A DNA stretch of 38,306 nucleotides from Okeania sp. SIO1I7 (GTDB lineage: Bacteria > Cyanobacteriota > Cyanobacteriia > Cyanobacteriales > Microcoleaceae), in the NCBI GenBank assembly GCA_010672585.1, contig JAAHGF010000046.1:1-38306 (forward strand), given 5' to 3'. The translations under genes and the position numbers were made by a program. Positions 4,621 through 32,993 of the stretch are shown piece by piece (within the stretch, counting starts at the first letter, position 1; each line of letters starts with the position of its first letter). The notes beneath the pieces were generated by a model. The model was not told the DNA's origin. It worked only from the letters and a program-made list of their open reading frames with translations, and ran no database searches.

Positions 4621-4666
4621 GCTGATTAGCATTAATGATTATCATGTTTACTACTCCCCTACTCCC

Positions 4667-6955: not shown

Positions 6956-6998
6956 ACACTTACATGGAATAGGTTGTAACTGATAACTGAATTTACTC

Positions 6999-7667: not shown

Positions 7668-7854
7668 TATTTGAAATAATCTCATAACCTGATGGTAACT
7701 CACCCAGATTTCAATCTCTCTTTTTTTGACAAAAATATCGGCTCTCAACCCCGACTTTTTCAGAGGATAAAAAATCAAATTATCCATCTTATCCTATCCC
7801 TATTCCAGGAACTACTGATAACTGTTAATTCATAACTTATAAATGAATTAACTT

Positions 7855-9726: not shown

Positions 9727-9778
9727 AAAAGTTGGTAATAGGTAATTGGCACATTTATATAGCAGCACCTTCTTTGGT

Positions 9779-12830: not shown

Positions 12831-12996
12831 ATGAATTTTCTTTTAGCAGTTTCCACTTTATGAATTTAAAGATTTCTGGATTTTTGGGAAATTTAACTAG
12901 GGACAGGGAATAAAGGAGCTTGCATTTTTATAAGTTGTTAATTATTACCAATTGAGAAATTTTTCCAATTTTAATAATTAACCAACCTGCAAACCA

Positions 12997-14094: not shown

Positions 14095-14521
14095 GAAACT
14101 CAAACTACAATAAATAATTAAGACCTTTATTTATTTTAACCTGTTTTCTTTAAATAAAGCACTCAGCTATAGAAGTCAGAAATCAAAAGTCAGAAGTTAT
14201 AATTTAAACTCTTGCTGTGACTAAATTTGAGAGGAGCGAGAATATCCTAATAATAATGGCGACTGCTATATCAGCAAATACTTCGCTAGATCTAGGGTTT
14301 TTGAGGTTTAGGACTATGAGCGTGTAAAACCTTAACCGCGTTTGTTGAAGGAAAATTCGGTCTAGATACTGTCATTCAGGAAGATTGTAGCGTCAACCAA
14401 ATAATTTCCTTAAAAATATTTTATCGGCCTACTTTCAAAGGCCTAGCTAAGAGGCCAATTGAAATCCCTAATAATCTCCCGCTAAATTTAGATAATAATA
14501 ACGAGAGAGCATTAATCAGAC
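14095..14521. other. Intergenic between aroC start and psbN end
   Basis: No gene is supported. It contains the aroC upstream region and, about 50-90 bp past the psbN stop, a weak hairpin GGCCT/AGGCC (~14427-14443) that is not followed by a T-run on the psbN strand. Nothing else was recognised. Confidence 0.5.
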
Positions 14522-14653
14522 TTAGTCTTCGTGTTCATCAAAAGGGTCTCTTAACTCCTTAGCGGGAGGTCCGAAGGCTGTGTAAATTGAAAAGCTAGTA
14601 ATGGCCACAACCATTACACCGATGGATATACTAAGAACTGTTGCCGGTTCCAT
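14522..14653 (-). CDS. psbN: Photosystem II assembly/repair protein PsbN
   Basis: The 43 residues open MEPATVLSISIGVMVV and close FGPPAKELRDPFDEHED, the classical PsbN sequence with one N-terminal membrane helix (~5-27). PsbN is needed for assembly and repair of photosystem II rather than being a subunit. Start: the ATG at 14653. The frame stays open upstream to 14878, but that part is a transposase-gene remnant, not PsbN. psbN is divergent from psbH as in other cyanobacteria; here the gap is ~810 bp because repeats have entered it. Confidence 0.96.
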   Translation of the reverse strand: MEPATVLSISIGVMVVAITSFSIYTAFGPPAKELRDPFDEHED

Positions 14654-14659
14654 ATAATT

Positions 14660-14878
14660 CATTAAAATTATGAGTGTTATAGTTCTTGACATCCTCCCGA
14701 CGTTGCGCATGGCGCGACAACGCGGGATTCCTATACCTTGCGGTTTAGGACTTTCTGCTTCGTAGCACCTGCCTCCAAGGCCCTTCCCTCTTTCTGGTCT
14801 TACGGTCGCTCCACAGACTGACACTGCTAGCCCAGCAGCCTTATTTAAAGCTAACACACTATTGGTAAAACCGCACAA
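14660..14878 (-). pseudogene. IS605-type tnpB C-terminal remnant and right end
   Basis: The minus-strand frame reads KAAGLAVSVCGATVRPERG, typical of the C-terminus of TnpB proteins from IS200/IS605-group elements. It continues through GIPRCRAM and NVGRMS. The DNA cttgacatcctcccgacg near 14688-14702 is the reverse of the gtcgggaggatgtcaag pattern at right ends of such elements, with imperfect pairing CCCGaCGTTG/CAACGcGGG. The catalytic RuvC part is missing. The frame happens to be open into psbN. Confidence 0.75.
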
Positions 14879-15462
14879 TTGATTGGTTTTCCCATCTCTT
14901 CGATCCCCTAATAGCTACCTCTAGGCTCTGCCAAAGGGATAGCGCGGGTCTTCAACCAAAGTTGAGATAAAAATATAGTCAAATATGACATATCCTTATT
15001 TTGCAGGTGTTACCCTGACGCTCGTGTTAGGGTAGCTCCTCCGGAGGAGGCACTACAACACCACGCCAGTTGCTTTAAGTCGGGGGACCCGCAAGGGCGC
15101 ACTGGCTCCCATATCCATGGTCAAAGACATAAGGGAGTTGCTTTTTATTTTCCTCTTTGTTTGACGATCTCCCTGATTCAATTTCTGCTTGGTCATAATA
15201 CAGAGGCTTGGACGTAGGTTCTTATGTGTCTAGAGGTAGCGTGTCAGTCCAGGAATTTCACCCTATTGAAATCAGATCGTTGACTCTTGAGGCTATTTTA
15301 TTCTCTATTATTGCAGACATTGTTAAATTATCTCAACAGTCGCCCAAATTTCTGGAGACAAAAGACTATGTTTAACTGCGTTATTTATTTACAACGTTTA
15401 TTATACAATATTATTACAAAAGATTAAAAAATTCTGCTGAATTATAGATTACATAGAAACTT
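14879..15462. other. psbN-psbH intergenic filler with palindromes; psbH leader
   Basis: There is no intact gene. The stretch is more GC-rich than its surroundings from 14880 to 15110. A large imperfect hairpin GCCAGTTGC ... GCACTGGC lies at 15065-15106, and a ctcctccggaggag palindrome at 15037-15050. From ~15370 to 15462 the sequence returns to AT-rich and forms the psbH leader; promoter boxes are not certain. Confidence 0.6.
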
Positions 15463-15666
15463 ATGGCACAAAGAACTGGATTAGGAGACCTGCTCAAACC
15501 TTTAAACTCTGAATATGGTAAAGTATCTCCCGGTTGGGGAACTACACCATTAATGGCCGTTTTTATGGGCTTGTTCTTTGTCTTCTTGTTGATTATTCTC
15601 CAAATCTACAACTCTTCGTTGTTGTTAGAGAATGTTGATGTGGACTGGGCTAGTCTAACTAAATAA
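15463..15666 (+). CDS. psbH: Photosystem II reaction centre protein PsbH
   Basis: This 67-residue protein starts [19 protein letters not shown] and has a single membrane helix (~29-50, [18 protein letters not shown]). Length and sequence match cyanobacterial PsbH, which stabilises photosystem II and quinone-site function in the thylakoid membrane. The short N-terminal tail lacks the extended phosphorylated segment of plant PsbH, as is usual. It is followed after 106 bp by tatA on the same strand, a known cyanobacterial order. Confidence 0.97.
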
Positions 15667-15682
15667 GATAAATTAAAGAGTA

Positions 15683-15720
15683 GGGCTAAGAAATTCAATT
15701 AATTAAAATTTCTCCAGCCC
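15683..15720 (+). terminator. Hairpin between psbH and tatA, possible attenuator/terminator
   Basis: GGGCTAAGAAATT and AATTTCTCCAGCCC pair with one small bulge around an AT-rich loop. No long T-run follows, so it could end psbH mRNA partially or protect a 3' end. Confidence 0.5.
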
Positions 15721-15772
15721 TAGCTATATCTTTAGTAGTAATTTCAGATAAGTTTTAGGAGTAAAAAACAAA

Positions 15773-16045
15773 ATGAATATTTTTGGTATTGGTCTGCCTG
15801 AAATGATTGTAATTTTAGTCGTAGCTCTTTTGATATTCGGTCCAAAGAAACTACCAGAAATTGGTCGTAGTTTAGGGCAAGCGATAAATAGTTTTAAAGC
15901 AGGAGCTAAAGAGTTTGAAAATGAGTTAAAACGGGAGGCAAAACAGTTAGAAGAAGGGTCTCAAGTTAGTCAATATGCAACTGAATCTGAGTCAGAAAAA
16001 GTAGTAACTGTTTCTTCCCCTACAGATGCAAGTCAGAAAAGCTAG
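15773..16045 (+). CDS. tatA: Sec-independent protein translocase TatA/E-type subunit
   Basis: A 90-residue protein with an N-terminal membrane helix (LPEMIVILVVALLIF), the FGPKKLPEIGRSLG hinge (~23-36) and an amphipathic helix running into a charged tail. This is the TatA pattern: TatA multimers form the pathway that carries folded proteins across the thylakoid and plasma membranes. It lacks the Pro-rich extension of TatB. A Shine-Dalgarno AGGAG (15757-15761) precedes the ATG. It follows psbH and precedes pth, an order kept in many cyanobacteria. Confidence 0.93.
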   Translation: MNIFGIGLPEMIVILVVALLIFGPKKLPEIGRSLGQAINSFKAGAKEFENELKREAKQLEEGSQVSQYATESESEKVVTVSSPTDASQKS

Positions 16046-16048
16046 TTC

Positions 16049-16082
16049 ACAATTAATAATTAATAATTAATAATTAATAATT
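16049..16082. repeat. Heptamer short tandem repeat
   Basis: Period-7 run of aattaat, about four and a half copies, directly after the tatA stop. Confidence 0.85.
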
Positions 16083-16215
16083 ACCTATCTTTGAAAAGAA
16101 GAGGATTGACTAAAAAGAAATTGTTTTGTTGTTTCTCTTTTGAAGGAGAAGCTTTAAACCTTAATTATTTGGTCAAACTAGAGAAAAAAATCACCTGAGC
16201 CAATCCAAAAAATTA

Positions 16216-16314
16216 GGTACATCTCATATTTGCAAAAATACTTTTTTCCTGTTCCCTATTTCCTGTTCCCTAAAAGCGATAATTTTTTAGCTCTATTTAA
16301 AATTGAGATGTACC
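16216..16314. mobile_element. MITE-like element F upstream of pth
   Basis: The 11-bp terminal inverted repeat GGTACATCTCA / TGAGATGTACC is flanked by an identical 10-bp direct repeat CAAAAAATTA (16206-16215 and 16315-16324), a good target-site duplication. The 99-bp element is non-coding; it creates a spurious N-terminal extension on the pth reading frame. Confidence 0.85.
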
Positions 16315-16361
16315 CAAAAAATTATTATATTTTTGACGATTTAATTTTAATTCTTAACGTA

Positions 16362-17006
16362 ATGAAAGAGGTGGCATCAGGGCCAAATTTAGTGATTCCT
16401 CAATTAATTGTAGGTTTGGGAAATCCAGAGCCAAAATACGAAAGAACTAGGCACAATATAGGATTTGCCGCAGTTGATACTATAGCTAATATGTGGCAGA
16501 CTTCTCTATCTGAAAACCGGAAATTTAAAGCGGAATTTGGAGAAGGCAGAGGTATAAAATCTGATAAAATCTATTTGCTTAAGCCCTTAACCTATATGAA
16601 TAGGTCAGGACAAGCAGTGCGTGCAGTGTTAGATTGGTATAAATTGCCACCCCATTCAGTGCTAATCATATATGATGATATGGATTTACCGATGGGACGA
16701 TTGCGACTACGGTTATCTGGGTCAGCAGGTGGCCATAATGGTATGAAGTCAGCGATCGCTCATTTAGGGACTCAAGAATTTCCTCGTTTGCGAATAGGTA
16801 TAGGTAAGCCAAAGAATGCTGGTACTGAAAGTAGAGATCCAAATACTGTTGGTCATGTTTTAGGAAAGTTTAGCCCAACGGAAAGTCAATTAATGACTCA
16901 AGTGCTGAAGTTAGTTGTAGAAGCTGTAGAGCTTTCTTTGAGACAAGGAATAGAAAAAGCAATGAGTCTTTATAACAGTCGTAGTGTCAGCTTACCAGAA
17001 GATTAA
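16362..17006 (+). CDS. pth: Peptidyl-tRNA hydrolase
   Basis: It releases tRNA from stalled peptidyl-tRNA in the cytoplasm. The 214-residue product carries the catalytic-site segments GLGNPEPKYERTRHNIGF (with the key Asn and His), KPLTYMNRSG and DDMDLPMGRLR...GSAGGHNGMKSI-type sequence, all in the usual order. The reading frame is open from 16230, but the first 44 codons come from MITE F and AT-rich leader. The ATG at 16362 (MKEVASGPN) fits the family start. HIP1 is present inside (16753). Confidence 0.95.
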   Translation: MKEVASGPNLVIPQLIVGLGNPEPKYERTRHNIGFAAVDTIANMWQTSLSENRKFKAEFGEGRGIKSDKIYLLKPLTYMNRSGQAVRAVLDWYKLPPHSVLIIYDDMDLPMGRLRLRLSGSAGGHNGMKSAIAHLGTQEFPRLRIGIGKPKNAGTESRDPNTVGHVLGKFSPTESQLMTQVLKLVVEAVELSLRQGIEKAMSLYNSRSVSLPED

Positions 17007-17111
17007 TTGACTATTTAAGAAAGTATTTAAAAGTGCCTTGATTTGTATAAGTCAGGGTATTATAAGAATTTAAAATTTTGACTTTCATCAAAGTGTGACT
17101 TTTAACTATTA

Positions 17112-17378
17112 ATGAGTTATAAAGGTTTACCAGAAACTACTGCTTATGTCAGAGTAACTCGTCAGTCTTGGCAAAAAGGGACTATCGAAGGAGAAGTAAG
17201 TGCTGGTTCTTTTAATTGGAATTTTAAATGGGGTTTTCGCCATAAAAAAACTCTTTCCATTCAACCTTCTCAAGGACGTGCATTAATTCAAGAACCTTTA
17301 GGTAGGTTTTTAGAAAAATGGGATTATCAACTAGAAGCTGGTGGGGATTACTATTTTACAATTAAAGCAAAATTTTAA
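17112..17378 (+). CDS. Small conserved cyanobacterial protein (DUF3146-like)
   Basis: The 88-residue protein is rich in aromatic and beta-prone residues (TAYVRVTRQSWQKGTIEGEV ... QLEAGGDYYFTIKAKF). It resembles the cyanobacteria-restricted family I know as DUF3146; the assignment is from memory and moderate. There is no signal peptide, membrane helix or known catalytic motif. It follows pth after 105 bp on the same strand and may be co-transcribed. Function unknown. Confidence 0.82.
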   Translation: MSYKGLPETTAYVRVTRQSWQKGTIEGEVSAGSFNWNFKWGFRHKKTLSIQPSQGRALIQEPLGRFLEKWDYQLEAGGDYYFTIKAKF

Positions 17379-17529
17379 CAAAACATAAGATATTAATTAG
17401 GTAGGTGGGAAATTTTAGTTGAACTTTAGCTGAAACAGATTAAAAGTAATTGTAAGTATAAAAGTTAGTGATGATGTAAATTAACTGTCCAAAAGCAAAT
17501 AATAAATTTAAATCTAAGTATTTATAAGT

Positions 17530-17826
17530 AGGTCTTGCTGATTAAATCTAAAAGCATTGACATATAAAGGTTGAGCGCATTTTTTAGTAAAAAAAAGTCC
17601 AAGCTTAATGGTCTTAATGGTTCAAAAAAGAGCGCATATTAGGCAAGAGTTGAGCAGAATAATCAAGGGATTATTCTTTCTCCTACCTCCTCTATAATTC
17701 CCCGTTCCTCCTGTCTCCCCCTCCCCTCCTGGGAGGGGTTAGGGGTGGGTTGGTCGGGGAGGGGCGAGGGGTGGGTTGTCTCCTGTCTCCTACCCTTACC
17801 CATAAGACTAGTGAAGCGCAAACCCT
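17530..17826. mobile_element. MITE-like element B1
   Basis: The ends AGGTCTTGC and GCAAACCCT are imperfect inverted repeats, flanked by 4-bp direct repeats AAGT (17526-17529, 17827-17830). The inner start TGATTAAATCTAAAAGCATT is shared with B2, B3 and B4. A 16-bp palindrome CCCCTCC-TG-GGAGGGG (17723-17738) opens a long G-rich run. It is non-coding and lies in the pyrG upstream region. Confidence 0.87.
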
Positions 17827-17932
17827 AAGTATTTATTACCTAAAATCTATACAAAAATGCCAAAAATTATAACTATTGAAATGAGATTTTTCCAGCCTTT
17901 GACCTACTACCTAAAACCTTCTTCAAACCTAA

Positions 17933-19690
<1,758 letters not shown>

Positions 19691-19818
19691 GTTATTAGTT
19701 ACTAAAAATTTTTTATTATTATTTGTTATCTGGTTTAATTTCCTGATCTTAGGCGATTACTAATAATCTTAAGTACAGTATTAAACATTGTTATATTTTC
19801 TAATATTAATCGCTGATA

Positions 19819-20052
19819 GTTACCTTCGATCTGTCAAACTTTTAGTAGTGGTGAACTTCTTGATTTCAAGAAAAAATATTTTTCATTGAGTGAACCTATC
19901 CCAGTAAGAATATTTTTGCTAAAAACCCTAAATATTTTGAGAGTTAAAAACAAAAAATTGAACTTTTAAAACACATTTTACTTCAATAAATAAGTCTGTT
20001 AAAAATAGTGGGATAGGTTCATTGAGTAGTAATTTACCAGATCGAGGATAAC
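19819..20052. mobile_element. Candidate older inverted-repeat element J, containing H
   Basis: GTTACCTTCGATCTG (19819-19833) and CAGATCGAGGATAAC (20038-20052) pair at 13 of 15 positions. Element H plus its duplication lies between; without it J would be ~98 bp. No target duplication was identified for J. Confidence 0.5.
19892..20020. mobile_element. MITE-like element H
   Basis: A 12-bp perfect inverted repeat GAACCTATCCCA / TGGGATAGGTTC bounds 129 bp and is flanked by 7-bp direct repeats ATTGAGT (19885-19891 and 20021-20027). Non-coding. Confidence 0.85.
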
Positions 20053-20132
20053 TCAATAGTGTCTATCGGACTTTTAGGGTAACTTGCACTAATTTGGAGA
20101 AATGCAAGAAATCAAAGCTTTGAGGGGGTCAT

Positions 20133-20561
20133 GTGGCCTACTGGATTAAAATAGATTATGAAAGAAGTAAATACTTGATCGACCTTGATCGTATTACTGC
20201 TTTTTCTTGTCAGTCAAATAAGCGACTAACTTTCTGGTTGCCAAATAGCAGTCAGCCAATTACTTTAAATAAACAAAGTTGCGAATATGACTATCAGTTA
20301 GTACTAGGATATATTAAAGACAAAATTGAGATAAACTATCCACCTAATGATGAATTTTGGGTGCAAATTATGTACGATCGCCATGAATGGTTTATAAATT
20401 TGAATTGTATTAGTACATTTGTTTTTGAACCGAATGGTCGTATAACTTTTTGGCTACCAGATAGTACAAAAGATATTATTATTAGTCCTAATATCAATCC
20501 GGAAGCTTATGAAAAGGTTGTGGAATTTATCACAAAAGTAACAGGGTATTCTTTACCTTAA
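20133..20561 (+). CDS. Hypothetical protein with tandem-duplicated domain
   Basis: The 142 residues are two copies of one ~65-residue domain: YWIKIDYERSKYLIDLDRI ... LTFWLPNSSQPITL and FWVQIMYDRHEWFINLNCI ... ITFWLPDSTKDIII. Each copy seems to be a small beta-rich fold followed by a helix (QLVLGYIKDK; KVVEFITKV). I do not recognise the family; no catalytic motif, signal peptide or membrane helix is seen. The start is a GTG preceded by GAGGGGG (20122-20128); an in-frame TGA at 20121 excludes a longer protein, and an ATG two bases before it is out of frame. Upstream lie elements H/J. Confidence 0.8.
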   Translation: MAYWIKIDYERSKYLIDLDRITAFSCQSNKRLTFWLPNSSQPITLNKQSCEYDYQLVLGYIKDKIEINYPPNDEFWVQIMYDRHEWFINLNCISTFVFEPNGRITFWLPDSTKDIIISPNINPEAYEKVVEFITKVTGYSLP

Positions 20562-20640
20562 AGAAGCAAGAAGGAAGAAAGAAGAAGGAATAAAGACTGA
20601 AAAAGTTGATGGAGATAGTCTTGAACCAGTCATTTAGTGT

Positions 20641-20730
20641 CTTATAACAATTTGAAAAAAGAATGCTTAACTTAAACTGTACTTCAATTATTAAGTAATT
20701 AACACAGACTGAATAACTTTTTTGATAATT
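20641..20730. repeat. Degraded family C end plus repeat shared with 4567-4620
   Basis: TTATAACAATTTGAAAAAAG then AATGCTTAAC resembles the family C end TAATACCAATTTAAAAAAAAG then AATGCTAC. It is followed at 20681 by acttcaattattaagtaatt and cttttttgataatt, as near 4567. Confidence 0.55.
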
Positions 20731-20752
20731 AGCACGCTAGTTCTTGTTGATT

Positions 20753-21055
<303 letters not shown>

Positions 21056-21424: not shown

Positions 21425-21462
21425 CTACATCATAATCTTTGATTTGATGTAGGAGAACGTCA
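21425..21462. mobile_element. Right-end hairpin of the IS605-type remnant
   Basis: CTACATCA and TGATGTAG (21425-21432, 21445-21452) form an 8-bp stem followed by gagaacgtcac, resembling the hairpin and cleavage region at right ends of IS200/IS605 elements. The element ends one base from the glucokinase stop codon and may act as that gene's 3' structure. Confidence 0.6.
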
Positions 21463-21463
21463 C

Positions 21464-22450
21464 TTAGTTATTATGCAAACTTGCCCAAGCTAATTTAGCA
21501 GCTCCTACAATACCAGCATGATTACCTAATTTAGCCGTTAATAATTGTAAGCCCAAACGAGAACTCAACAAAACTCGTCGCTCAATTTCAGCTTTAGCTA
21601 CAGGCAAAAAAAGTTCTGCACCAGCACTCACTCCCCCCCCAATAATCACAGCTTCTGGTGTCAAGATATAAATCAAACTTGCCAAACCTACACCCAAAAG
21701 TCTGCCATAATAATCCCAGAATTCTAGGGAAAATTTGTCTCCAGTTTGAGCCAAGTTTGCTAATTCCAAGGGTTCTTTACCAGTAGCTCGACGAATTGCT
21801 TGAACAGAAACATATTGTTCTAAAGACCCACTATTACCACTGTTACATTCTGGCCCATCAGGATTTAAAGTAATTAACCCTAACTCTCCACCAGCACCTT
21901 GATGACCCACAAAAAGTTGGCCGTCCAAAATAATTGCTCCCCCTACACCAGTACCCAGGGTAAGCATAATCATATTTTTAAAAGGACGACCCGCACCTAG
22001 CCAAGCTTCTCCTAAACCAGCACAATTAGCATCATTAGCTATAACTACTGGTAAACCTGTCTTTTCCTCCAAACATTCAGCCAAGGGAACATTTTGCCAA
22101 TCTGTCAAATTAATTGCTACTTTAGATATTCTACCTTGGACATCAGTAGGGCCAGGTACTCCAATACCTATGGCTTGAATAACTGCTGAGTTAACTGGTT
22201 GAGATTTAGCTACAGATAAATTCGGTGGATTAACACTATAATTGTTGAGTGAAGAATTACATCTTAAACCAGAGTTTGCAGAGCGCTGCAATAACAAAAT
22301 CGCTTCTACCACCACATCAATTACTGCTTTTGGGGTTGCAGGTTGAGGAGTTGGCACATTCAAAAATTGATGACAAACTCCATTTTTGTCAAAACGCCCC
22401 AGTTTAATTGCTGTCCCCCCTATATCAATACCTATTACCTGAACATCCAT
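21464..22450 (-). CDS. ROK-family glucokinase
   Basis: The likely product phosphorylates glucose with ATP. Residues 1-20 hold the phosphate loop GIDIGGTAIKLG; GIGVPGPTD, ANDANCAGLGE (with the catalytic-type Asp), TLGTGVGGAII and VIIGGGVSAG follow in ROK order. The usual ROK zinc motif CxCGxxGCxE appears as CNSGNSGSLEQ: only one of the three Cys is kept, so structural zinc is doubtful. Start: ATG at 22450 (MDVQVIGIDIGG), 328 residues. The frame runs 18 codons further, but that extension (cgcacaacgtacgttaacgc region) looks like repeat DNA. A fructokinase or other hexokinase activity cannot be excluded. Confidence 0.9.
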   Translation of the reverse strand: MDVQVIGIDIGGTAIKLGRFDKNGVCHQFLNVPTPQPATPKAVIDVVVEAILLLQRSANSGLRCNSSLNNYSVNPPNLSVAKSQPVNSAVIQAIGIGVPGPTDVQGRISKVAINLTDWQNVPLAECLEEKTGLPVVIANDANCAGLGEAWLGAGRPFKNMIMLTLGTGVGGAIILDGQLFVGHQGAGGELGLITLNPDGPECNSGNSGSLEQYVSVQAIRRATGKEPLELANLAQTGDKFSLEFWDYYGRLLGVGLASLIYILTPEAVIIGGGVSAGAELFLPVAKAEIERRVLLSSRLGLQLLTAKLGNHAGIVGAAKLAWASLHNN

Positions 22451-22627
22451 ATTAGTCAGCCTGTGTTTAGCTGTCGCACAACGTACGTTAACGCTTCGCG
22501 ACATATAAAGTGTAGCATTGCCTCAACAAAACAAGAAACTTCAGAAGGAAATTGGGTACAGTTATCCTTGTGTTGAAGTTCCCGTTATCATCTCAGATTT
22601 AACGGTTGCAGTGCGATCGCTACTTTC

Positions 22628-22771
22628 ATGCAACAAAGCCTTTCTAAGGGTAAATTTTGGGAATTTGGTAAATTGAAAGGAGATATTTTCACGAGAAATA
22701 TCATCAGCTATAACACTGGAGATTTAGATAGATTATTTGCCATAGTAAATTCTGTATTTCAGCAATGTTGA
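22628..22771 (+). pseudogene. Gene fragment, C-terminal part of an unrecognised family (copy 1)
   Basis: A 47-codon frame opens MQQSLSKGKFWEFGKLKG and ends DLDRLFAIVNSVFQQC then TGA. Its last ~35 residues (DIFTRNIISYNTGDLDRL...) match the second fragment at 22946. After the TGA the frame still reads LQLENSE, like copy 2's end, so the TGA probably truncates an older, longer end. I do not recognise the parent family. Confidence 0.6.
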
Positions 22772-22852
22772 TTGCAGTTAGAGAATAGTGAAAAAAATCT
22801 CTAAAATCTAGTATTTTATGGTGAGCGATCGCTTTTTGGTATAACATTTTAT

Positions 22853-22926
22853 CCCACATTCCGCACTTCAATTTATCAGATTAAAAGTAGTATAAAAATC
22901 CGTAGCTTGGTAGATATTTATACTAT
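22853..22926. mobile_element. Truncated MITE-like element E3
   Basis: CCCACATTCCGCACTTCAAT and the following ~55 bp match the left part of E1 (11667 onward), including aaagtagtata and tatttatactat. The sequence diverges after 22926 and the right end is missing. Confidence 0.8.
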
Positions 22927-22945
22927 TATCTACTTGTATACGAAT

Positions 22946-23056
22946 GATGTTTTTACGAGAAATATTATTAGTTATAGTATCGGGGATTTGGATAAATTAT
23001 TTGCCATTGTAAATTATGTGTTTCCAGAATGCTTGCTGCAGTTAGATAATAGTTAA
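22946..23056 (+). pseudogene. Gene fragment, C-terminal part of the same family (copy 2)
   Basis: The frame reads DVFTRNIISYSIGDLDKLF, then AIVNYVFPECLLQLDNS and stop TAA (23054). It has no start in frame. It is about 80 percent similar to copy 1 by eye. E3 lies between the copies. Confidence 0.6.
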
Positions 23057-23120
23057 ATAAGTTTGATATAATATCAGATTACAATCATACCATAAAATTT
23101 AAACTCAAATTTAATTATTA

Positions 23121-25910
23121 ATGAATATTGACTTAAATCCTAACTGGAAAAAACTCACAGAAATTGATTGGAATTTCTCCCAAGCTCAAACCAATTATCT
23201 AACCCATAGACTTCATCCCTATCCGGCAAAATTTATTCCTCAAATTCCCCACCAACTCATTCAAGAACTTTCTCGACCAGGGGAAATAGTTGCTGATATA
23301 TTTTGCGGTAGTGGTACAACATTAGTCGAAGCACTAACTCAGAAACGTCATACTATTGGTATTGATGCTAACCCCATTGCTTGTTTAATCAGTGAAGCCA
23401 AAACAACTTGCTTCAATACAGAAGATAAAGCATTATTAAATTCTCTTGTAAAACGCACAGAAAATTTATCTCAGTCAATCTATATTAATACTAAATCTCC
23501 CCTGTTAAACACAGAAAAATTTACCTCATATGCTGCTCGTCCCAATCATAAAGCAATATCCTTTTGGTTTGAACCATTTGTCGTTGAAGAATTAGCAGAA
23601 ATACTAAATTGGTGTCAGCAACTCTCCACAAAATCTAGTAGAAAAATTGCCTTGACAGTATTTTCTTCTATTGTAGTTACTGTTTCCAAACAAGATTCAG
23701 ATACTCGATATGTTCGTAGGCAAAAAAAGATTGTCCCAGGGGATACTTGCAAACGTTTTACTAAAGCTTTAAAAGAAGCGATCGTCTCTGTTTCTGAGTT
23801 TACAAACCAAGTCGAAGCTAACCTAAATTGCCAAGTAAATTGTGCCAACTTACTGACAAAACCTGATATTGGCGATGTAGATTTAGTAGTCTGTTCTCCC
23901 CCTTATCCCAATGCTTATAGCTATCACCTTTATCACATGACTAGGATGATTTGGTTAGGTATGAATCAACCTAAATTTAAACAAGAAGAAATTGGTAGTC
24001 ATCGCAAATATAGTAGTAAAAGTTCTAAAGGTGCGACAATAGAAACATTCCGCTCAGAAATGGAAACTATTTTTGAGTGGTTAGGAGAACATTTAAAATT
24101 TAACAGATATGCCTGTTTTGTTGTGGGAGATTCTTTAATTAAAGGTAAAAAAATCAGTAATGTCGATCTAATTTCTGAGGTAGCTAAAGATTATGGTTTC
24201 TCCGAAATAAAACGTATTCATAGACAAATGCAAGATAGAAAAAAATATTTTAATCCAGCTATTGGCAGAATTAAAACTGAACAAATTCTTATTCTGCAAA
24301 ATTCTGGAAAACCATTGCTCAAGTGTAAAATAAAACCATATATTCAACCCTTTGAACGAAAATTAGCACTATCTGAATTAACCACACTTACAGGTTCAGA
24401 ACCTTATGCTTTAACTACAGAAAAAGAAGTATTAAATTTTCAAGTTTTTTCTAATTTACCAGCTAACATTTTAGCCAGTAAATTATCTTACTGGGAATCA
24501 GTTACTCAGGAAGATAAAACATACATTACCACCCAAGTAAAACGAGAAGCTACTGTTAATACTACTCATCAAAAATTAGAAAAAATTTCCAAAAATTTAC
24601 CGTTTTCTCAATCAATACCTTTCCCAAAACGGCGCTGTTTAAGATACGGAACTCATGGCATACATGAATACCGAGGTAAGTTTTTTCCCCAACTTGTTCA
24701 GAGTTTAATTAATATTGCTAAAGTACCAGAAAAAGGAATTATTGCTGACCCAATGAGTGGAAGTGGTACGACTTTAGTAGAAGCAGTTTTAGGAGGTTAT
24801 CATGGGGTGGGGTTAGATATGAATCCTCTATCAGTATTAATAGGAAAAACAAAGTGCGATTTATTGTCAGTTCCACCAGATAAACTTTTAGAAAATTATC
24901 AGCAAGTTGCTGACACCATCGGCAACTTAAAACTTACAAAATCTTCAGCTAAACTACATTACTTTTCTAGTTTACCCAGAGAAAATCAAATCTATCTTAA
25001 TCGTTGGTTTGCACCGGAAATTTTAGCCAAACTTGACAAAATTGCTATTTTGATAAAATCGGTGGAAAATAATACAATGCAAAATTTAATGCAGGTTTCC
25101 ATGAGTAATATTATTCGGAAAGTTTCTTGGCAAAAAGAAAGCGATTTAAGAGTTCGCAAAGAAATAATTAATACTGCAAATATTCATCCAACACAAGAGT
25201 TTTTAAATGAGCTAGAAAATTCAGTTAAAACTGTTCTTTCTTTCCTGTATCAAAATCAAGATTCACAGTTAGGAACTTTTGATATTCAAGGTGGCGATGC
25301 CAGAAAAGTAACCACTATTTGGCAGGATTTAATAGGTAAGGTAGATGTGGTAATTACCTCTCCCCCCTATGCAACAGCACTACCTTATTTAGATACCGAT
25401 CGCTTGAGTTTATGTTATTTAGGTTTGTTATCGCGATCGCAACACCGCAAACAAGATTTAAAAATGATTGGCAACCGAGAAATAACAGAAAAACAACGGC
25501 GAGATTATTGGGAATCTTTTCAGCATAAAAAAGCACTTTTTCCTCAATCTGTAATTTCGTTAATTGAAAAAATAGACAGATTAAATACACAATCAAATGC
25601 TGGTTTTAGAAGACGAAATTTAGCTGCTTTATTGGCAAAGTATTTTTTTGATATGCGAGAAGTTTTCCAGGAGATATTACAACTTTTAAAACCAGGAGCT
25701 TTTGCTTATATTGTGATTGGTCATAATCATACAATTGCTGGTGGGGAAAGAGTTGAGATTGAAACTGCAAAATTATTAGTAGATATTGGAGAAATGGTAG
25801 GTTTGGAAATAGTAGAACAAATTGAGATGGAGATGTTAACTTCGCGGGATATTTTTAAGAAAAATGCTGTTGCATCTGAGGTTATTTTACCATTCTTTCG
25901 CCCCACCTAA
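23121..25910 (+). CDS. Two-headed DNA methyltransferase (two fused MTase domains)
   Basis: This 929-residue protein contains two full SAM-dependent DNA methyltransferase domains of the beta-type order. Domain 1 has HPYPAKFIPQ (~32-41), motif I DIFCGSGTT (59-67) and catalytic SPPY (259-262). Domain 2 has HEYRGKFFPQ (~513), motif I DPMSGSGTT (543-551) and catalytic SPPY (747-750). SPPY in this order is typical of N4-cytosine enzymes, with N6-adenine possible. The matching HxYxxKFxPQ lead-ins suggest an internal duplication or fusion. There is no nuclease motif and no partner restriction gene on the same strand. It converges with herA-nurA. The ATG at 23121 follows AT-rich DNA. Element A1 begins immediately after the stop codon. 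Confidence 0.93.
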   Translation: MNIDLNPNWKKLTEIDWNFSQAQTNYLTHRLHPYPAKFIPQIPHQLIQELSRPGEIVADIFCGSGTTLVEALTQKRHTIGIDANPIACLISEAKTTCFNTEDKALLNSLVKRTENLSQSIYINTKSPLLNTEKFTSYAARPNHKAISFWFEPFVVEELAEILNWCQQLSTKSSRKIALTVFSSIVVTVSKQDSDTRYVRRQKKIVPGDTCKRFTKALKEAIVSVSEFTNQVEANLNCQVNCANLLTKPDIGDVDLVVCSPPYPNAYSYHLYHMTRMIWLGMNQPKFKQEEIGSHRKYSSKSSKGATIETFRSEMETIFEWLGEHLKFNRYACFVVGDSLIKGKKISNVDLISEVAKDYGFSEIKRIHRQMQDRKKYFNPAIGRIKTEQILILQNSGKPLLKCKIKPYIQPFERKLALSELTTLTGSEPYALTTEKEVLNFQVFSNLPANILASKLSYWESVTQEDKTYITTQVKREATVNTTHQKLEKISKNLPFSQSIPFPKRRCLRYGTHGIHEYRGKFFPQLVQSLINIAKVPEKGIIADPMSGSGTTLVEAVLGGYHGVGLDMNPLSVLIGKTKCDLLSVPPDKLLENYQQVADTIGNLKLTKSSAKLHYFSSLPRENQIYLNRWFAPEILAKLDKIAILIKSVENNTMQNLMQVSMSNIIRKVSWQKESDLRVRKEIINTANIHPTQEFLNELENSVKTVLSFLYQNQDSQLGTFDIQGGDARKVTTIWQDLIGKVDVVITSPPYATALPYLDTDRLSLCYLGLLSRSQHRKQDLKMIGNREITEKQRRDYWESFQHKKALFPQSVISLIEKIDRLNTQSNAGFRRRNLAALLAKYFFDMREVFQEILQLLKPGAFAYIVIGHNHTIAGGERVEIETAKLLVDIGEMVGLEIVEQIEMEMLTSRDIFKKNAVASEVILPFFRPT

Positions 25911-26295
<385 letters not shown>

Positions 26296-26300
26296 TAATT

Positions 26301-26536
26301 AGGGTTTGCTGATTAAATATCAAAGCATTTACAGATAAAGGTTTTAGCCTTTTTAGGGTCTAAAAAAGTGTGCCTGTTTCAGTCTAAAACACTCAAAAAT
26401 TTAGTATTTTGGCAAGATTTGGGCAGAAAAATCATTCTTACAATTCTTACTCCTACCTCATCTAAATTCCCATTTTTCCTGTCTCCTGTCTCCTGTCTCC
26501 TACAAAGAGCAAAAAGACTTTTCATACGCAAACCCT
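26301..26536. mobile_element. MITE-like element B4
   Basis: The ends AGGGTTTGC and GCAAACCCT form a perfect 9-bp inverted repeat with AATT duplicated at 26297-26300 and 26537-26540. Its interior aligns with B2 and with B3 reversed. It lies 34 bp from the herA stop codon. Confidence 0.92.
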
Positions 26537-26569
26537 AATTATAACTAAACTCTAAAATTAATGACTTAA

Positions 26570-28393
26570 CTAATCCTCTTTATTCTCTACTTTTTGTTTG
26601 ATTATTTCCCACATTGAGCGAGTCACTCCTGACTTGGGTAAACCCTCTCCTCCATCCTTCTCTGGAGCCGTAAAATCTCTTACCTGAAATACAAGTGGGA
26701 AATTTTTAGTAGCTCCATTAATACCACTGAGAAACAAATTGTGATACTTTGGTAAATCCTTAGCAAATCCTTCAATTGTCTTTTTATCAGCTAAACCACA
26801 ATCAATCACTTTATCTATATCTTTTTGGTTAACCATTCGCGTCATAATTAAGTTGTCTAAAAGACGAAATACTGAATCCGGTAAAGCTCCTGGTGTGTTG
26901 GTGACAAAAAATAAATTCATGCCTAAATGTCGGATTAGAGGAATTAATTCATCAATATATTCTGCATCCATATACATATGAGCTTCCTCAAAAAAGATAG
27001 AAGGATATATGGGAATTTGTACTTTTTGAGAATCAAATGCTTGATACTGCTTATTGCATATTGACTTGAGTTGGTCAATAACTAGAGTAACCACAACTTT
27101 TTGTATATTTGAAGCTAAACCACCTAGATCAAAAACAATAATTCCAGCGTTATTTTTGAGGTCATTTAAACTTTGATTCTCACTAGAATTTCTATTTTCT
27201 GTATCGTGTGCCATTCTATAAAGAATACTTCTTAGAGAAACAACTTCAGTTGTTGGTTGCTGATTATTTTTAATAATTTTATCCTCTTCCTTTGCTTCGT
27301 CTTCTGTGCAAAAAAGATCGTAGCTTATTAAATTACTAATACCCCGATCATATGCACCTAGCATTTGTTGATTTGTTCCAACTACATCCTGACTTTGTGA
27401 TAGTATAAACTCTAGGTCAGGAATCCTATTAACTCCTATCCTATCTTCAATAACTCCAGGTAAATTAGCTCTAACAGCATTATCAGTAGCAGGAGTATTA
27501 AACAGAGATAGTTGTTCAAATACTTTAAAAAGACTAGAAATTGGTAGCTGATCTAGTCGGAACTTGAAATTTTCAGTAGGGCGAAGTTTTTTAACTTTTT
27601 GTAGAGAAGAATATTCTCCATTTATATCAAAAACAATTGAAGGCATACCCAATTTAGTTTGTAAATGGATAATTCCCTTTGTAATATGAGATTTACCACC
27701 ACCTTTCATTCCTGTGATTAAATTAACCTTTTCAAATCCACTTGCATCAACATTTATAGGATGTTTTTTATAATCTCCTAAAAATAAATTTAATTCAGGG
27801 AAAGATTTAATAATATGTTTTGTTAAAAATTCAGGATTAATTGGAAAAATATCAACATTCCTTGTTACTACCTTACCTTCTGGTTCTTTCCACTCTCCTT
27901 TTTGGATAGAAGCACGAACTATAAATTCTGCCACTAAAAACTCATCAATAACTTCCTTTGGTTCATTATAAGAACGTTTTATATCTTTAGCATGAGCAGT
28001 TGTTACTAACCGAAATAAAGCTTTACTATCTGCTTGGGGATAACTAGCAATTCCTTTTGAAATAATTTGGGCAATCAAACCATTTTCAGAATCTTTAGGT
28101 GGTAATTTATTTTCAGAAAATACTTTTTCCCGCAAAAAAATAACATCACCTACATCAAAATCTCTATCTTTAGGATAAAAAACTATACTACCTTCACTTC
28201 CCGTTAGTTCCAGAAGTTGTGCCGATTGAATAGCCGATTCATTTGATAAATTAGACTGAGGAGCTTCTTCATCAACCTCTTTTTCTATATCTAATTCTGG
28301 AGCTTCAAAACTTATAGGTTTAGGCAAAGGAGGACTTTGATTATTGTCACTATTTAGATTTTTTTTGTTGTTTGATTTCTTTTCAGTTACCAT
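26570..28393 (-). CDS. herA: HerA-type hexameric DNA translocase ATPase
   Basis: The 607-residue protein begins with a charged, low-complexity ~60 residues, then a beta-rich segment (~60-120) that could be the HAS-barrel. The FtsK/HerA ATPase core follows, with Walker A GMKGGGKSH (~226-235), FDINGEY (~258), Walker B FFEEAH (~467-472) and VTNTPGALPDSVF (~500). HerA rings pump DNA and work with NurA in end resection in archaea; bacterial relatives also occur in anti-phage systems with various nucleases. The nurA stop lies 22 bp upstream of its ATG, so the pair is an operon. Its 3' end faces the MTase gene across MITEs A1, B3 and B4. The physiological role here is unproven. Confidence 0.9.
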   Translation of the reverse strand: MVTEKKSNNKKNLNSDNNQSPPLPKPISFEAPELDIEKEVDEEAPQSNLSNESAIQSAQLLELTGSEGSIVFYPKDRDFDVGDVIFLREKVFSENKLPPKDSENGLIAQIISKGIASYPQADSKALFRLVTTAHAKDIKRSYNEPKEVIDEFLVAEFIVRASIQKGEWKEPEGKVVTRNVDIFPINPEFLTKHIIKSFPELNLFLGDYKKHPINVDASGFEKVNLITGMKGGGKSHITKGIIHLQTKLGMPSIVFDINGEYSSLQKVKKLRPTENFKFRLDQLPISSLFKVFEQLSLFNTPATDNAVRANLPGVIEDRIGVNRIPDLEFILSQSQDVVGTNQQMLGAYDRGISNLISYDLFCTEDEAKEEDKIIKNNQQPTTEVVSLRSILYRMAHDTENRNSSENQSLNDLKNNAGIIVFDLGGLASNIQKVVVTLVIDQLKSICNKQYQAFDSQKVQIPIYPSIFFEEAHMYMDAEYIDELIPLIRHLGMNLFFVTNTPGALPDSVFRLLDNLIMTRMVNQKDIDKVIDCGLADKKTIEGFAKDLPKYHNLFLSGINGATKNFPLVFQVRDFTAPEKDGGEGLPKSGVTRSMWEIIKQKVENKED

Positions 28394-28415
28394 AATTTTT
28401 TATGAGTTTTTATTA

Positions 28416-29585
28416 CTATTTTCCTGATGCTCCAAAAGGTTGAAATAAAATATCCATAGATGGTTGGAATTGTGGTTTTGAGCCTAATTTTACTGTAGCT
28501 TGAGCCAAAAGATTTTGGAAATCCTGAAATAAAAAGCAACTATTTTGATGTGCTTCAATCAATGGTTTCGGATATCCACCATAAATTCGGCAATAGTTAT
28601 AAACATCATTAATTACTTCATCCGTAGTCATACCCCGGCAATTATGTAAGTCTACCCTAAAAGTCATGCTAGTCGGGCTAAACCCAAACTTAGCTGCATA
28701 CATTTCACTAGCTTTTGTCACTCTAATTCTATTCTTTCCACCTGCTTTCTGAGCTTTTCTCCTTTCATCTTCCAAAAGTTTCTTGATAGGAACATACCCA
28801 ATAAAATCAGGACCATAAGCTTCTGTTAAAAATTTTTGAATAGGAATTCCTGCTACAGTTATTGTTGTTTTTTTGCTAATAGCAACAACATCTATCAGAT
28901 TTTTATTACATTCATCTAACAAATTTTTTACATAAGAATCTGGCGTATCAAAAGCTCTAGGTGTTATAGCTCCATCTATTAAAAGAATTCCACCTCCATA
29001 TTTTCTCAAAATACCTACTGCCTCAGCTTGAATAATTCGCTCCACAAAATTACGGAAGCGATCTTGAGTTTGATCTGCTGTTTCTGTGAAACTAGACCTT
29101 TCTGTCAAAAAAGGCTCTTCCTCTGTAACCTTGACATAAAATTCAGGCTCTCCTAAATACCTCCCCATCTCGTGTAGAACTTTTAACTTGTTTGTATTGT
29201 CAATAGCTATAGCTCCCGTATTATAGCGAAGTACAATTATGCTACCTTCAGATGTGTAAAAACAGGCAGTACCTCTGACAGCAAAAACAATCCCACCTTT
29301 AGCCAGACTACCTAAATTCACTACTCCAGCATCAACAGCAATAATTGGTGGTGGATGTCTCCTTTTAGGTCTTCCCATACGGGTAGCTTTGAGTGAACTA
29401 GACAAAGCAATATTATCTTCTAAACTATACCGATATGCTAATTTATCTGACTCATCTATCAGTTCATCTGGCTTCGTATTACGTTCTTGGTATAGCAGAA
29501 TATCCCCACGATGATTAGCCAGAGTTTCCCAAGAGAATTCAACTAAACCCTTGATGATTAGATTTTCACGATTAGCAAATTTCAT
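28416..29585 (-). CDS. nurA: NurA-domain nuclease
   Basis: This 389-residue protein shows the NurA motif series: IIAVDAGVV (metal ligand Asp85), LLIDGAITPR (Asp204), VVAISKKT (Lys238), MTFRVDLHNC (~307-316) and PLIEAHQNS (His346). NurA enzymes are RNase H-like 5'-3' exonucleases/endonucleases acting with HerA to process DNA ends. It is the first gene of a two-gene minus-strand operon, 22 bp before herA. There is no signal or membrane segment. The basic GRPKRRHPPP stretch just before the catalytic core may contact DNA. The ATG at 29585 gives a normal length for the family. Whether it serves repair or defence cannot be told from the gene alone. Confidence 0.88.
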   Translation of the reverse strand: MKFANRENLIIKGLVEFSWETLANHRGDILLYQERNTKPDELIDESDKLAYRYSLEDNIALSSSLKATRMGRPKRRHPPPIIAVDAGVVNLGSLAKGGIVFAVRGTACFYTSEGSIIVLRYNTGAIAIDNTNKLKVLHEMGRYLGEPEFYVKVTEEEPFLTERSSFTETADQTQDRFRNFVERIIQAEAVGILRKYGGGILLIDGAITPRAFDTPDSYVKNLLDECNKNLIDVVAISKKTTITVAGIPIQKFLTEAYGPDFIGYVPIKKLLEDERRKAQKAGGKNRIRVTKASEMYAAKFGFSPTSMTFRVDLHNCRGMTTDEVINDVYNYCRIYGGYPKPLIEAHQNSCFLFQDFQNLLAQATVKLGSKPQFQPSMDILFQPFGASGK

Positions 29586-29690
29586 AGAGTATATTTTTGC
29601 AAATTTTGTAAAGTCTACTATATACCCTAAATATCCTCAAAACTCAAAATTCTGAATAATGAGCTATAGAAAGTTTCCTCCAACAAATAA

Positions 29691-29901
29691 TATCATGTTC
29701 CCCCGGAGGGGGAGCTACGCTAACGGTTGAATACTTATAAATAACTGTTGTGAGGAGTCAGGAGTCAGTCCTCAGGAGGGAAGAAAGGGGAAAAATAGGA
29801 AATATGGGAGATGGGGTATTGATAATTTCAGTATTTCTTTGGTACCGTCAGTACTGTCAGTCCTTAAATTTTATTTATAACTGACCCGTCCGAACATGAT
29901 A
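29691..29901. mobile_element. MITE-like element A2
   Basis: The ends TATCATGTTC and GAACATGATA are flanked by TAA (29688-29690, 29902-29904). The left end is split by a ~24-bp insert CCCCGGAGGGGGAGCTACGC, after which the family sequence GGTTGAATACTTATAAATAA resumes. It carries gaggagtcaggagtc heptamer runs. It is located upstream of nurA. Confidence 0.88.
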
Positions 29902-30071
29902 TAACCCGACCTCTACTTCTGTATAAATATTGGCAAACTTAACTTACCGAAAATGCCAATTGTTGAGATGCAAAAATTGTTCATTTTAAAATTCAATTAA
30001 AACGCCGTTTGATTAATAATTTGCTCAATTATTTAACAGTAGAATTATTATTTATCGATCGAGACATCCTC

Positions 30072-30098
30072 AAGTTTATTAAAGCTAAGAATAAACTT
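30072..30098. repeat. 9-bp-stem hairpin in the nurA-Uma2 intergenic region
   Basis: AAGTTTATT and AATAAACTT pair around a 9-base loop. No T-run follows on either strand. The rest of 29902-30195 shows nothing recognisable. Confidence 0.5.
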
Positions 30099-30195
30099 AA
30101 TTATTTTCAAACAAAATGCCCCTATACCTTAGAATAATAGCTCGATAAAAATTGATTAAATCTCAAATAATAGTCAAGTCTATCCTACTTTCCCC

Positions 30196-30765
30196 CTACT
30201 CAAATTCTACATTTTCATAGATATCTGACAAAGAGATTTGAAACTCCACCGAACTCAAAGATAAAACGCTTTCATCACCTTCATATTCTGACAGTAACCA
30301 TTTACCATCCTCAGTTTTGCTAAATTGTTCGATATAATATCTGTATTGGTCAATGAGAATATATTCCTGGAAACTATTTACTCTGCGATAATACTCAAAT
30401 TTTTGCCCCCGGTCATAATTTTCTGTCGATCGCGACAATACTTCCACAATTATCTGAGGGTTAGTAATAGTATCTCGGCGACCTTCAGCATAAATAACTG
30501 GAGTAGCAATAACCATCAAATCTGGATAGGTGTAAATATTTTTTGTTGGTATTGACAAGCGCAAGTCGCTCATAAAAGTTTCGTAAGGTCGCCCTTTGAT
30601 GCCATACTTTAATGTTGCGTAAAAGTTACCAACAATTCGATTGTGGTTTACTGTTCCTCCAGTCATGGGTATTATTTCTCCATGGCGATATTCACTTCTA
30701 AATTCAGCAGTTGTTTCCTGCTCTAGATACTCTTCGACAGAATAACGGGTTTGAGTTGCCTGCAT
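30196..30765 (-). CDS. Uma2-family (DUF820) PD-(D/E)XK-fold protein, copy 1
   Basis: The 189 residues show Uma2 landmarks: SVEEYLEQE near the start, EYRHGEIIPMTGGTVNHNRI, YPDLMVI (~99; catalytic-type Asp) and IIVEVLSRSTENYDRG (~104-122). An FEYYR...EYILID segment follows. Uma2 proteins are restriction-endonuclease-like and very abundant in cyanobacteria, often dozens per genome, with no settled function. It stands alone with an ATG at 30765. It is only distantly similar to the copy at 32445. Confidence 0.88.
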   Translation of the reverse strand: MQATQTRYSVEEYLEQETTAEFRSEYRHGEIIPMTGGTVNHNRIVGNFYATLKYGIKGRPYETFMSDLRLSIPTKNIYTYPDLMVIATPVIYAEGRRDTITNPQIIVEVLSRSTENYDRGQKFEYYRRVNSFQEYILIDQYRYYIEQFSKTEDGKWLLSEYEGDESVLSLSSVEFQISLSDIYENVEFE

Positions 30766-30836
30766 TAAATTCTCTCCTGTTTGATTATATAAAATTATAT
30801 AATACTAAAATTTATCCTTTGATTCTAAAAGTTTTT

Positions 30837-30861
30837 TTGGGTTGCGCTGCGCTTAACCCAA
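30837..30861. repeat. REP-like palindrome
   Basis: TTGGGTT and AACCCAA enclose gcgctgcgctt; aacctac follows. It belongs to the common cyanobacterial class of ggttg...caaccc palindromes. It lies between the Uma2 start and the 3' end of the next gene. Confidence 0.65.
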
Positions 30862-31061
30862 CCTACAATTACAACCTTTACTCCTAATTTTCATAATTGT
30901 TGAACGATAAATAATATTCGCTACATAATCAAGCCCAAATTTACCGAATAATTAAGGTTTAAAGCCTCTCACTCGCCGTGGAGAAACAATTAATTAATTT
31001 TCCTTTTATTCAATCCTCTTCCTTTTAGGGAGAGGTAATTATCAATTATTGAAACAATGCC

Positions 31062-32444: not shown

Positions 32445-32993
32445 TTAATTTTCTGCGAAAAAAGAACTAACTGAAACAGAAATATCTGGAAATGCTAGGG
32501 GATTAATTTTTCCTTGCCGGAAAATAACTTCCGATTCATAATTATCTGCTTGAGGATGTCGAAAAACATAAATTTGTCGATTTTCCACATCTACTACCCA
32601 ATATTCTAAAATTCCCGCTTTTGCATAAGCTTGCTTTTTTTCCCCTAAGTCATAACCTAGAGTAGTATTAGCAATTTCTATCAGCAAAAAAATATCTTCA
32701 GGATAAGGATGACGTTGATAGTAATTATTTCTGGGTGGGCGTGCGATCGCAATGTCAGGTTGAGGTTCAGAATTAGACAGAGTAATAGGATGTGCTTCCC
32801 GAACATAAGCTAAATCTTTGAGCAGAGAGCGTAGATGTTCAACGCTAGTTTCTGTAATTTGAGTATGTATTGGACTTTCCGGTGACATTTCTACAATTTC
32901 CCCATGCAAAAGTTCCACATGACGGTTAACAAATATTCCAGTATTAATTAGATGATGATATTCTTTAACTGTCCACTTTAATAAAGTTTTCAT
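32445..32993 (-). CDS. Uma2-family (DUF820) PD-(D/E)XK-fold protein, copy 2
   Basis: The 182-residue product has WTVKEYHHLINTGIF at the start and LLHGEIVEMSPESPIHTQI (~29-47). These are followed by QPDIAIARPP (~78), LLIEIANTTLGYDLGEK (~101) and KKQAYAKAGILEYWVVD. These are the acidic and Lys positions expected of the PD-(D/E)XK core in Uma2 proteins. No partner gene is adjacent. The ATG at 32993 has no obvious Shine-Dalgarno. It may be a selfish nuclease-like gene or have a regulatory role; unknown. Confidence 0.9.
   Translation of the reverse strand: MKTLLKWTVKEYHHLINTGIFVNRHVELLHGEIVEMSPESPIHTQITETSVEHLRSLLKDLAYVREAHPITLSNSEPQPDIAIARPPRNNYYQRHPYPEDIFLLIEIANTTLGYDLGEKKQAYAKAGILEYWVVDVENRQIYVFRHPQADNYESEVIFRQGKINPLAFPDISVSVSSFFAEN

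Follow-up and report, generated by a model that had tools for sequence, protein, structure and literature searches.

Type IIS restriction-modification (R-M) systems of the BfiI/BmrI type consist of two DNA methyltransferases (MTases) and a metal-independent endonuclease of the phospholipase D (PLD) type. In TdpABC, the TdpAB complex is formed by a HerA-like hexamer and a NurA-like dimer and restricts phage DNA, with phosphorothioate as the mark of self. In CglI and NgoAVII the ATPase is a DEAD-family helicase and the nuclease is of the PLD type. Here we describe a locus from Okeania sp. SIO1I7 in which the gene for a two-domain MTase is followed by convergent genes for a HerA-like ATPase and a NurA-like nuclease. 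It lies at positions 23121 to 29585 of the stretch of DNA that was analysed, 38,306 nucleotides of contig JAAHGF010000046.1, that we call the window. In a locus from the same genus, the place of nurA-herA beside the same MTase gene is held by a PLD endonuclease gene. We consider it likely that the locus encodes a defence unit akin to R-M, with NurA-HerA instead of the endonuclease and methylation as the mark of self.

An earlier note on this DNA had proposed a functional unit made of these three genes, and the open reading frames are as it described. The MTase has 929 amino acids (23121 to 25910, plus strand), the HerA-like translocase ATPase 607 (26570 to 28393, minus strand) and the NurA-like nuclease 389 (28416 to 29585, minus strand). 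The tight spacing claimed for the pair was confirmed, with nurA 22 bp upstream of herA, and 659 bp separate the MTase stop codon from that of herA. PADLOC MTase_II models match MTase residues 6-394 and 409-923 and the motifs are doubled (GSGTT at residues 63 and 547, SPPY at 259 and 747), in agreement with two complete MTase domains. The identities given for the other two proteins also held up. HerA contains a Walker A motif (GMKGGGKS, residues 228-235) and EEAH (469-472), and matches Pfam DUF87 (6.6e-14) and HerA_C (1.1e-6). NurA is divergent: its match to Pfam PF09376 is weak (22.9 bits vs a cut-off of 21), and the best E-value of its sequence profile against the PDB is only 0.065. Foldseek searches with predicted models of moderate confidence (predicted local distance difference test 65 for NurA, 72 for HerA) returned Sulfolobus NurA (2ygk, 4e-9) and Sulfolobus HerA (5e-20), respectively, as top PDB matches. 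Thermococcus HerA-NurA and TdpAB were the next fold matches for NurA and appeared further down the HerA list. HerA thus combines Walker A and B motifs with a HerA fold, and the predicted NurA model has a NurA fold containing D85, E182, D204 and H346, residues invariant in all 5 rows of the NurA alignment that we take to be catalytic.

By sequence similarity, the MTase belongs to the BfiI-type R-M family, a point absent from the earlier note. Its residues 12-396 and 402-928 are each 54% identical to M1 and M2, respectively, of an R-M locus on a Rhizobium plasmid where M1 and M2 are separate genes. The two MTases of a BfiI-like system are therefore both present in the window, as a fusion, the comparison being with the Rhizobium proteins. 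We viewed the plasmid neighbourhoods of the best 3 of 8 records and found the relatives as two separate genes adjoining a gene for a PLD-like protein, convergent in Rhizobium and in the same direction in Roseibium (33% identity) and Methylobacterium (32%). The same set of MTases and PLD-like protein occurs at a locus in an Anaerolineales genome (L069). We rejected the fusion as a hallmark of the NurA-HerA type because the PLD-linked copies in L082 and L084 are also fused. The ratio of nonsynonymous to synonymous substitution rates (dN/dS) of the window MTase against the copies in L082, L068 and L083 is 0.19-0.24, and is 0.187 against L068, the pair in which both copies are linked to nurA-herA. 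This indicates purifying selection on the MTase. Elsewhere, a related MTase fragment (residues 350-553, 52-57% identical, with stops) lies at 7947-8603 of locus L071 (genome G041) among short open reading frames resembling transposase pieces and seems to be a decayed copy. A Pseudanabaena plasmid (NZ_AP017561.1, 33510-36005) carries two adjacent MTases, one distantly similar (25%) to the N-terminal half of the window MTase and the other 24% identical to an Oscillochloris MTase.

The second point absent from the earlier note is that the endonuclease gene and nurA-herA stand in for one another. The comparison is with L082, a locus of genome G531 (the same as G1025), which is of the same genus as the window. 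Alignment blocks 96-98% identical cover window positions 12467-20929, 21461-25888 and then 29901 onward. The second block (97.4%) matches L082 8458-12885, and window 29901-30944 (95.9%) matches L082 14370-15411. Identity in the flanking CTP synthase, ROK, Uma2 and NAGPA genes is 97.3-98.4%. Between 25888 and 29901 of the window, the matches are confined to repeat copies that lie elsewhere in L082. The replaced segment (25889 to 29900, 4012 bp) holds two repeats, herA and nurA, and its 1484-bp counterpart in L082 holds one PLD endonuclease gene. L082 encodes the same 929-amino acid two-domain MTase, followed by a single convergent gene for a BfiI-like PLD endonuclease that overlaps the MTase stop by 4 nt. 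There is a 4-nt overlap in L084 as well, and the two genes are 220 bp apart in L083. BfiI is described as a PLD type IIS enzyme (PMC4081073). The L082 protein, which has a PLD endonuclease and a B3-like DNA-binding domain, matches BfiI (PDB 2c1l, 6e-7), with its BfiI_DBD match (2e-4) below the Pfam cut-off, as is that of the L083 protein. At E 1e-5, no PLD endonuclease was found in the window or its genome. Judging from the aligned blocks, PLD endonuclease and nurA-herA differ in place between congeners, an exchange that we note without direction. A convergent PLD endonuclease holds the nurA-herA position in three carriers of the MTase (G531, G493 and G496), which fits a shared restriction-arm role better than unrelated neighbours and supports the functional unit that the earlier note had thought plausible.

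The exchange extends into the MTase gene. In a four-way comparison of the MTase genes from the window, L082, the nurA-herA-linked Okeania locus L068 and L083, nucleotides 1-1800 contain 60 sites at which the window groups with L082 and 5 at which it groups with Okeania. For nucleotides 1801-2790 the numbers are 5 and 27. This mosaic is significant (Fisher 3.8e-14), with a break at gene nucleotides 1814-1857 (window 24934 to 24977): upstream the gene groups with the PLD-type L082 and downstream with L068. In a cusum analysis that ignores linkage between sites, 0 of 10000 permutations reached the observed value. The nurA-herA-linked copies end in similar tails, VILPFFRPT (window), IILPFFRPT (Okeania) and, as read from the DNA, a close variant of these (Trichodesmium), whereas the C-terminal tail of PLD-linked copies differs. 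Together, the switch in site grouping and the tail pattern indicate from sequence that the last third of the MTase gene travels with the effector type. Synonymous divergence (dS) between the window genome and Okeania is 0.09 for herA, 0.08 for nurA and 0.18 for the MTase, and between L082 and L083 it is 0.13 for the PLD gene and 0.275 for the MTase. Because dS is lower for the effectors than for the MTase, the effector cassettes appear to move. Against Okeania, dN/dS is 0.43 for herA and 0.36 for nurA.

The 659-bp gap had been taken as a ground for caution. It is real, and it is occupied by two copies, in opposite orientations, of a roughly 250-bp repeat that resembles a miniature inverted-repeat transposable element (MITE), with termini TAGGGTTTGC/GCAAACCCTA. 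Copy 1 lies at 25928 to 26185 and copy 2, inverted relative to it, at 26296 to 26542, so the mobile-element debris reported around the genes was correctly seen for the gap. Similar sequences occur at dozens of further places in the genome of 9.48 Mb (115 matches among the matches listed, many counted once per inverted copy). In Trichodesmium (L041), where these genes also converge, 31 bp lie between them. Given this short gap and the MITE copies in the window, the 659-bp gap is probably a later insertion. Further copies of the repeat lie in the window near 17.5 kb and 20.8 kb.

By its distribution, the nurA-herA pair is accessory. The genomes are drafts, and one genome scan was based on two short peptide patterns, so that many relatives may be missed. 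A 4-row HerA profile matched 4 of 388 genomes of the order: the window genome, Okeania sp. SIO2F4 (G1068, G477), a Trichodesmium metagenome-assembled genome (MAG; G1097, G478) and Laspinema olomoucense (G952, G480). As a single sequence, HerA matched only itself among 386 genomes of the phylum at E 1e-8, and NurA matched only itself among 148 genomes at E 1e-10. With the Pfam NurA model, 145 of the 148 genomes searched in the order proved to have a core NurA; the copy in the window genome (C37:39403-40260) is 18% identical to the window NurA in the aligned part. On these counts, four carriers and a separate core NurA, we rejected nurA-herA as core cyanobacterial repair genes. The subtype is thus not common in cyanobacteria, and its four carriers all have a DNA MTase. 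In Chloroflexota, 4 of 400 genomes matched HerA: two strongly (G479 and G660), one through a distant HerA (G483) and one through a fragment (G894). This last genome was left out of the six assigned to the subfamily. In viral contigs, no relative was confirmed, whether the query was a single protein (HerA, NurA or MTase) or an alignment. A tblastn search of plasmids and phages found no NurA relative and, for HerA, only a short weak match in one Klebsiella phage (two records); no plasmid record matched HerA or NurA.

An MTase accompanies the NurA-HerA subfamily in all six genomes in which it was found, contiguously in four and, by inference, across contig ends in two. Among the cyanobacterial carriers, it is contiguous in the window and Trichodesmium and inferred from contig ends in Okeania sp. 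SIO2F4 and Laspinema. The two Okeania contigs break off inside the MITE-like repeat, one 199 bp past the MTase and the other 228 bp past herA. Trichodesmium and the window share 81% identity in the MTase and 78% in HerA, so that the linkage has been kept over this divergence. The NurA-HerA of Laspinema, at a contig end, is 65-66% identical to that of the window and the closest outside the Okeania/Trichodesmium group. There, the contig with the herA end continues into an MTase 23% identical to the window MTase and 33-35% identical to two MTases from the Chloroflexota loci. In these, the distance from herA to the MTase gene downstream of it is 213 bp in Oscillochloris (L042) and 13 bp in G660, a plain nurA-herA-MTase run (L090). 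The Laspinema, L042 and L090 MTases are all Pfam N6_N4_Mtase proteins. Directly after the Oscillochloris set there are TniQ-, TnsC- and TnsB-like genes of Tn7 type (L042 12043-17428), which suggests that this set is on a mobile carrier.

Searching from the MTase, at E 1e-20, gave 6 of 60 genomes in the family of G478. Five matches are near full length, with identities of 96, 93, 89, 81 (frames broken) and 65%; the sixth (G494, 28%) was left out of the count. Two of the five genomes have HerA (Okeania and Trichodesmium) and the other three are the PLD carriers named above. The earlier note had held that the genes would be unrelated neighbours if nurA-herA of this subtype were present in most cyanobacteria without this MTase and the MTase were mostly elsewhere. 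The subtype proved rare, and its four cyanobacterial carriers all have an MTase with it; the MTase is also found apart from nurA-herA, in three of five near-full-length carriers. In a survey of 16 entries, two genomes being entered twice, the PLD protein was found at E 1e-5 in none of the six nurA-herA genomes and in all four genomes with a PLD-linked MTase (G531, G493, G496 and G484). HerA is absent from the three PLD genomes of the family, and G484 has only a distant HerA. Partners are thus exchanged on both sides: one NurA-HerA subfamily occurs beside two MTase families and one MTase beside two nucleases.

We conclude that the MTase and nurA-herA probably form a real unit. In the mechanism that we propose, the two MTase domains would methylate the enzyme's sites in the host genome, one domain for each strand, as BfiI-type pairs would lead one to expect. 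NurA-HerA would take the place held by the PLD endonuclease in relatives and would assemble into a translocase ring coupled to a nuclease, which destroys DNA without the mark. Methylation would block this attack by being read during translocation, by analogy with the reading of phosphorothioate by TdpAB, and the target would be phage or plasmid DNA. Behind this proposal stand the in-place difference between PLD endonuclease and nurA-herA, the recombination break in the MTase gene, the intact MTase and the pairing of NurA-HerA with two MTase families. Since both modules occur elsewhere with partners that are distant or unrelated, MTase and NurA-HerA are more likely linked through a DNA mark than through a dedicated protein interface, and two-way exchange is what would be expected if they communicate through the state of the DNA. 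We also lean, by a little, towards a broader view of the locus as one of a modular R-M class. NurA-HerA would be a restriction arm for ready-made type II MTases that dispenses with a site-specific endonuclease, reads the marks of unrelated MTases and trades places with classical endonucleases at the same site, through recombination within the MTase gene. Such a class would be the base-methylation counterpart of TdpABC.

Several observations weigh against the proposed defence unit. The MTase and herA are convergent and share no operon in either the window or Trichodesmium. Three of five genomes of the same genus have neither HerA nor PLD, so the unit is dispensable. Adjacency in Okeania sp. SIO2F4 depends on contigs that end in a MITE, and in Laspinema herA lies at two contig ends with its middle absent from the contigs, while the nurA alignment crosses a stop upstream of the open frame. 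The Trichodesmium MAG copy (L041 64-6143) has broken nurA and MTase frames, through decay or assembly error. The independent origins are few, with perhaps two MTase pairings. Neither NurA nor HerA has an obvious sequence-specific domain that might explain how methylation at sparse sites is read. By profile, the window HerA resembles archaeal HerA (1.4e-12) and the HerAs linked to Sir2 or DUF4297 more closely than it does TdpA (1.5e-5). Lastly, an MTase was seen beside only 1 of 10 distant HerA loci (about 25% identical, L044-L053), which we did not use as support for linkage.

The one case is in Armatimonadetes (L044 2320-4536), where an MTase begins 3 bp downstream of the HerA-like gene and is cut by the contig end. 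Five Anaerolineae-type loci (L047, L048, L049, L050 and L053) have a distant HerA and, after it, a gene for a PD-(D/E)XK-like protein of about 290 amino acids, possibly another HerA-nuclease pair; the Pfam score of this protein is below the cut-off in L047 and L050 and just above it in the other three. The window MTase query, and Pfam on selected neighbours, gave no MTase among the neighbours of L045, L046, L051 and L052. Of these, L046 and L052 contain nurA and L045 and L051 gave no nurA match. In L046 (6630-10629, a Chloroflexi MAG), nurA-herA lies between argininosuccinate synthase and the start of a lyase-family gene. A Uma2 gene is beside the distant HerA of L051.

The pairs in L046 and L052 bear on the main rival explanation, which we regard as unlikely: nurA-herA recombined in for the endonuclease and works by itself, perhaps attacking free DNA ends, with the MTase an orphan kept for other reasons. 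The convergent orientation would suit this, as would the report that Thermococcus kodakarensis HerA-NurA, with no MTase involved, degrades both strands of double-stranded DNA whatever the end structure (PMC12977600). An orphan MTase would leave unexplained that a second MTase family has entered this partnership elsewhere. Nor is it favoured by an MTase adjoining, or at a matching contig end, in six of six subfamily genomes, or by an MTase dN/dS that stays at about 0.2, also between the two copies linked to nurA-herA. We consider it improbable that the end of the MTase gene is simply a site of defence-gene exchange with functionally unlinked occupants. The flanking Uma2 genes, MITEs and recombination breaks do mark the region as plastic. 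However, the slot in the five genomes with near-full-length MTase holds only a PLD endonuclease (three) or nurA-herA (two, one of them across contig ends), and Chloroflexota loci in another context also have nurA-herA with an MTase. Very improbable is a second end-resection pair for DNA repair beside an incidental MTase: the NurA-HerA of Deinococcus and of archaea is associated with end processing (PMC12977600), but the core NurA is elsewhere, and the window pair is sporadic and less diverged than the adjoining MTase, as if moved.

If the proposed unit is correct, restriction and modification are separable, and a site-specific cutter can be swapped for a processive DNA-degrading motor while the methylation shield is kept. 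Cells may then be able to trade one anti-virus weapon for another while the shield stays in place. The MTase and the restriction proteins would not need to co-evolve, and a direct test would become possible of how a nuclease that is not site-specific reads sparse base methylation. HerA-NurA, long discussed as repair enzymes, would be linked to the discrimination of self from non-self by ordinary DNA methylation.

Other genes in the window include two Uma2-family genes (30196-30765 and 32445-32993), on the same side of the exchanged segment and kept in L082. Three TPR-rich proteins, two with terminal sulfotransferase domains, are encoded on the minus strand at 1681-9768.

Among the literature matches listed (titles and abstract starts, with bioRxiv and most subscription journals outside the scope), there was no system of NurA, HerA and an MTase and no paper on the TdpABC mechanism. 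The authors of the Thermococcus study suggest an antiviral role for HerA-NurA (PMC12977600). The window unit shares a HerA fold and a nuclease partner with Sir2-HerA/Nezha and HerA-DUF4297; its partner, however, is NurA, and it includes an MTase. The anti-phage HerA/DUF1156 system was rejected, with scores of 18.9/800 bits for HerA_antiphage and 46.9/1000 for DUF1156_antiphage, as was membership in MADS or DndH, for which matches are below the cut-offs or partial (PADLOC HerA 2.6e-12 and mad8 5.6e-8, both partial). CglI and NgoAVII resemble the window in joining an MTase to an NTP-driven nuclease complex (PMC5737866, PMC4267653), but the window has HerA and NurA instead of an ATPase and nuclease of their type. 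With BfiI/BmrI-type systems the window shares the MTase family and the locus, and a PLD-like partner is present in L082, L083, L084, L069 and on the Rhizobium, Roseibium and Methylobacterium plasmids; in the window, nurA-herA is in place of the PLD gene. By analogy, TdpABC is the nearest precedent. No sulphur-transfer gene such as TdpC was found among the Pfam-tested neighbours (ROK, Uma2, NAGPA and MTase), where no TdpC sequence was used as a query. In the window, a type II MTase would set the mark by methylating bases, whereas the mark of TdpABC is backbone sulphur. The resemblance to TdpA and TdpB is by fold and remote profile only, and other HerAs match the window HerA better. In both cases, a HerA-like and NurA-like pair adjoins a DNA-modification gene, the HerA profile matches TdpA at 1.5e-5, and TdpAB (8wfd chain G, 6e-9) is the second-best PDB match of the predicted NurA model.

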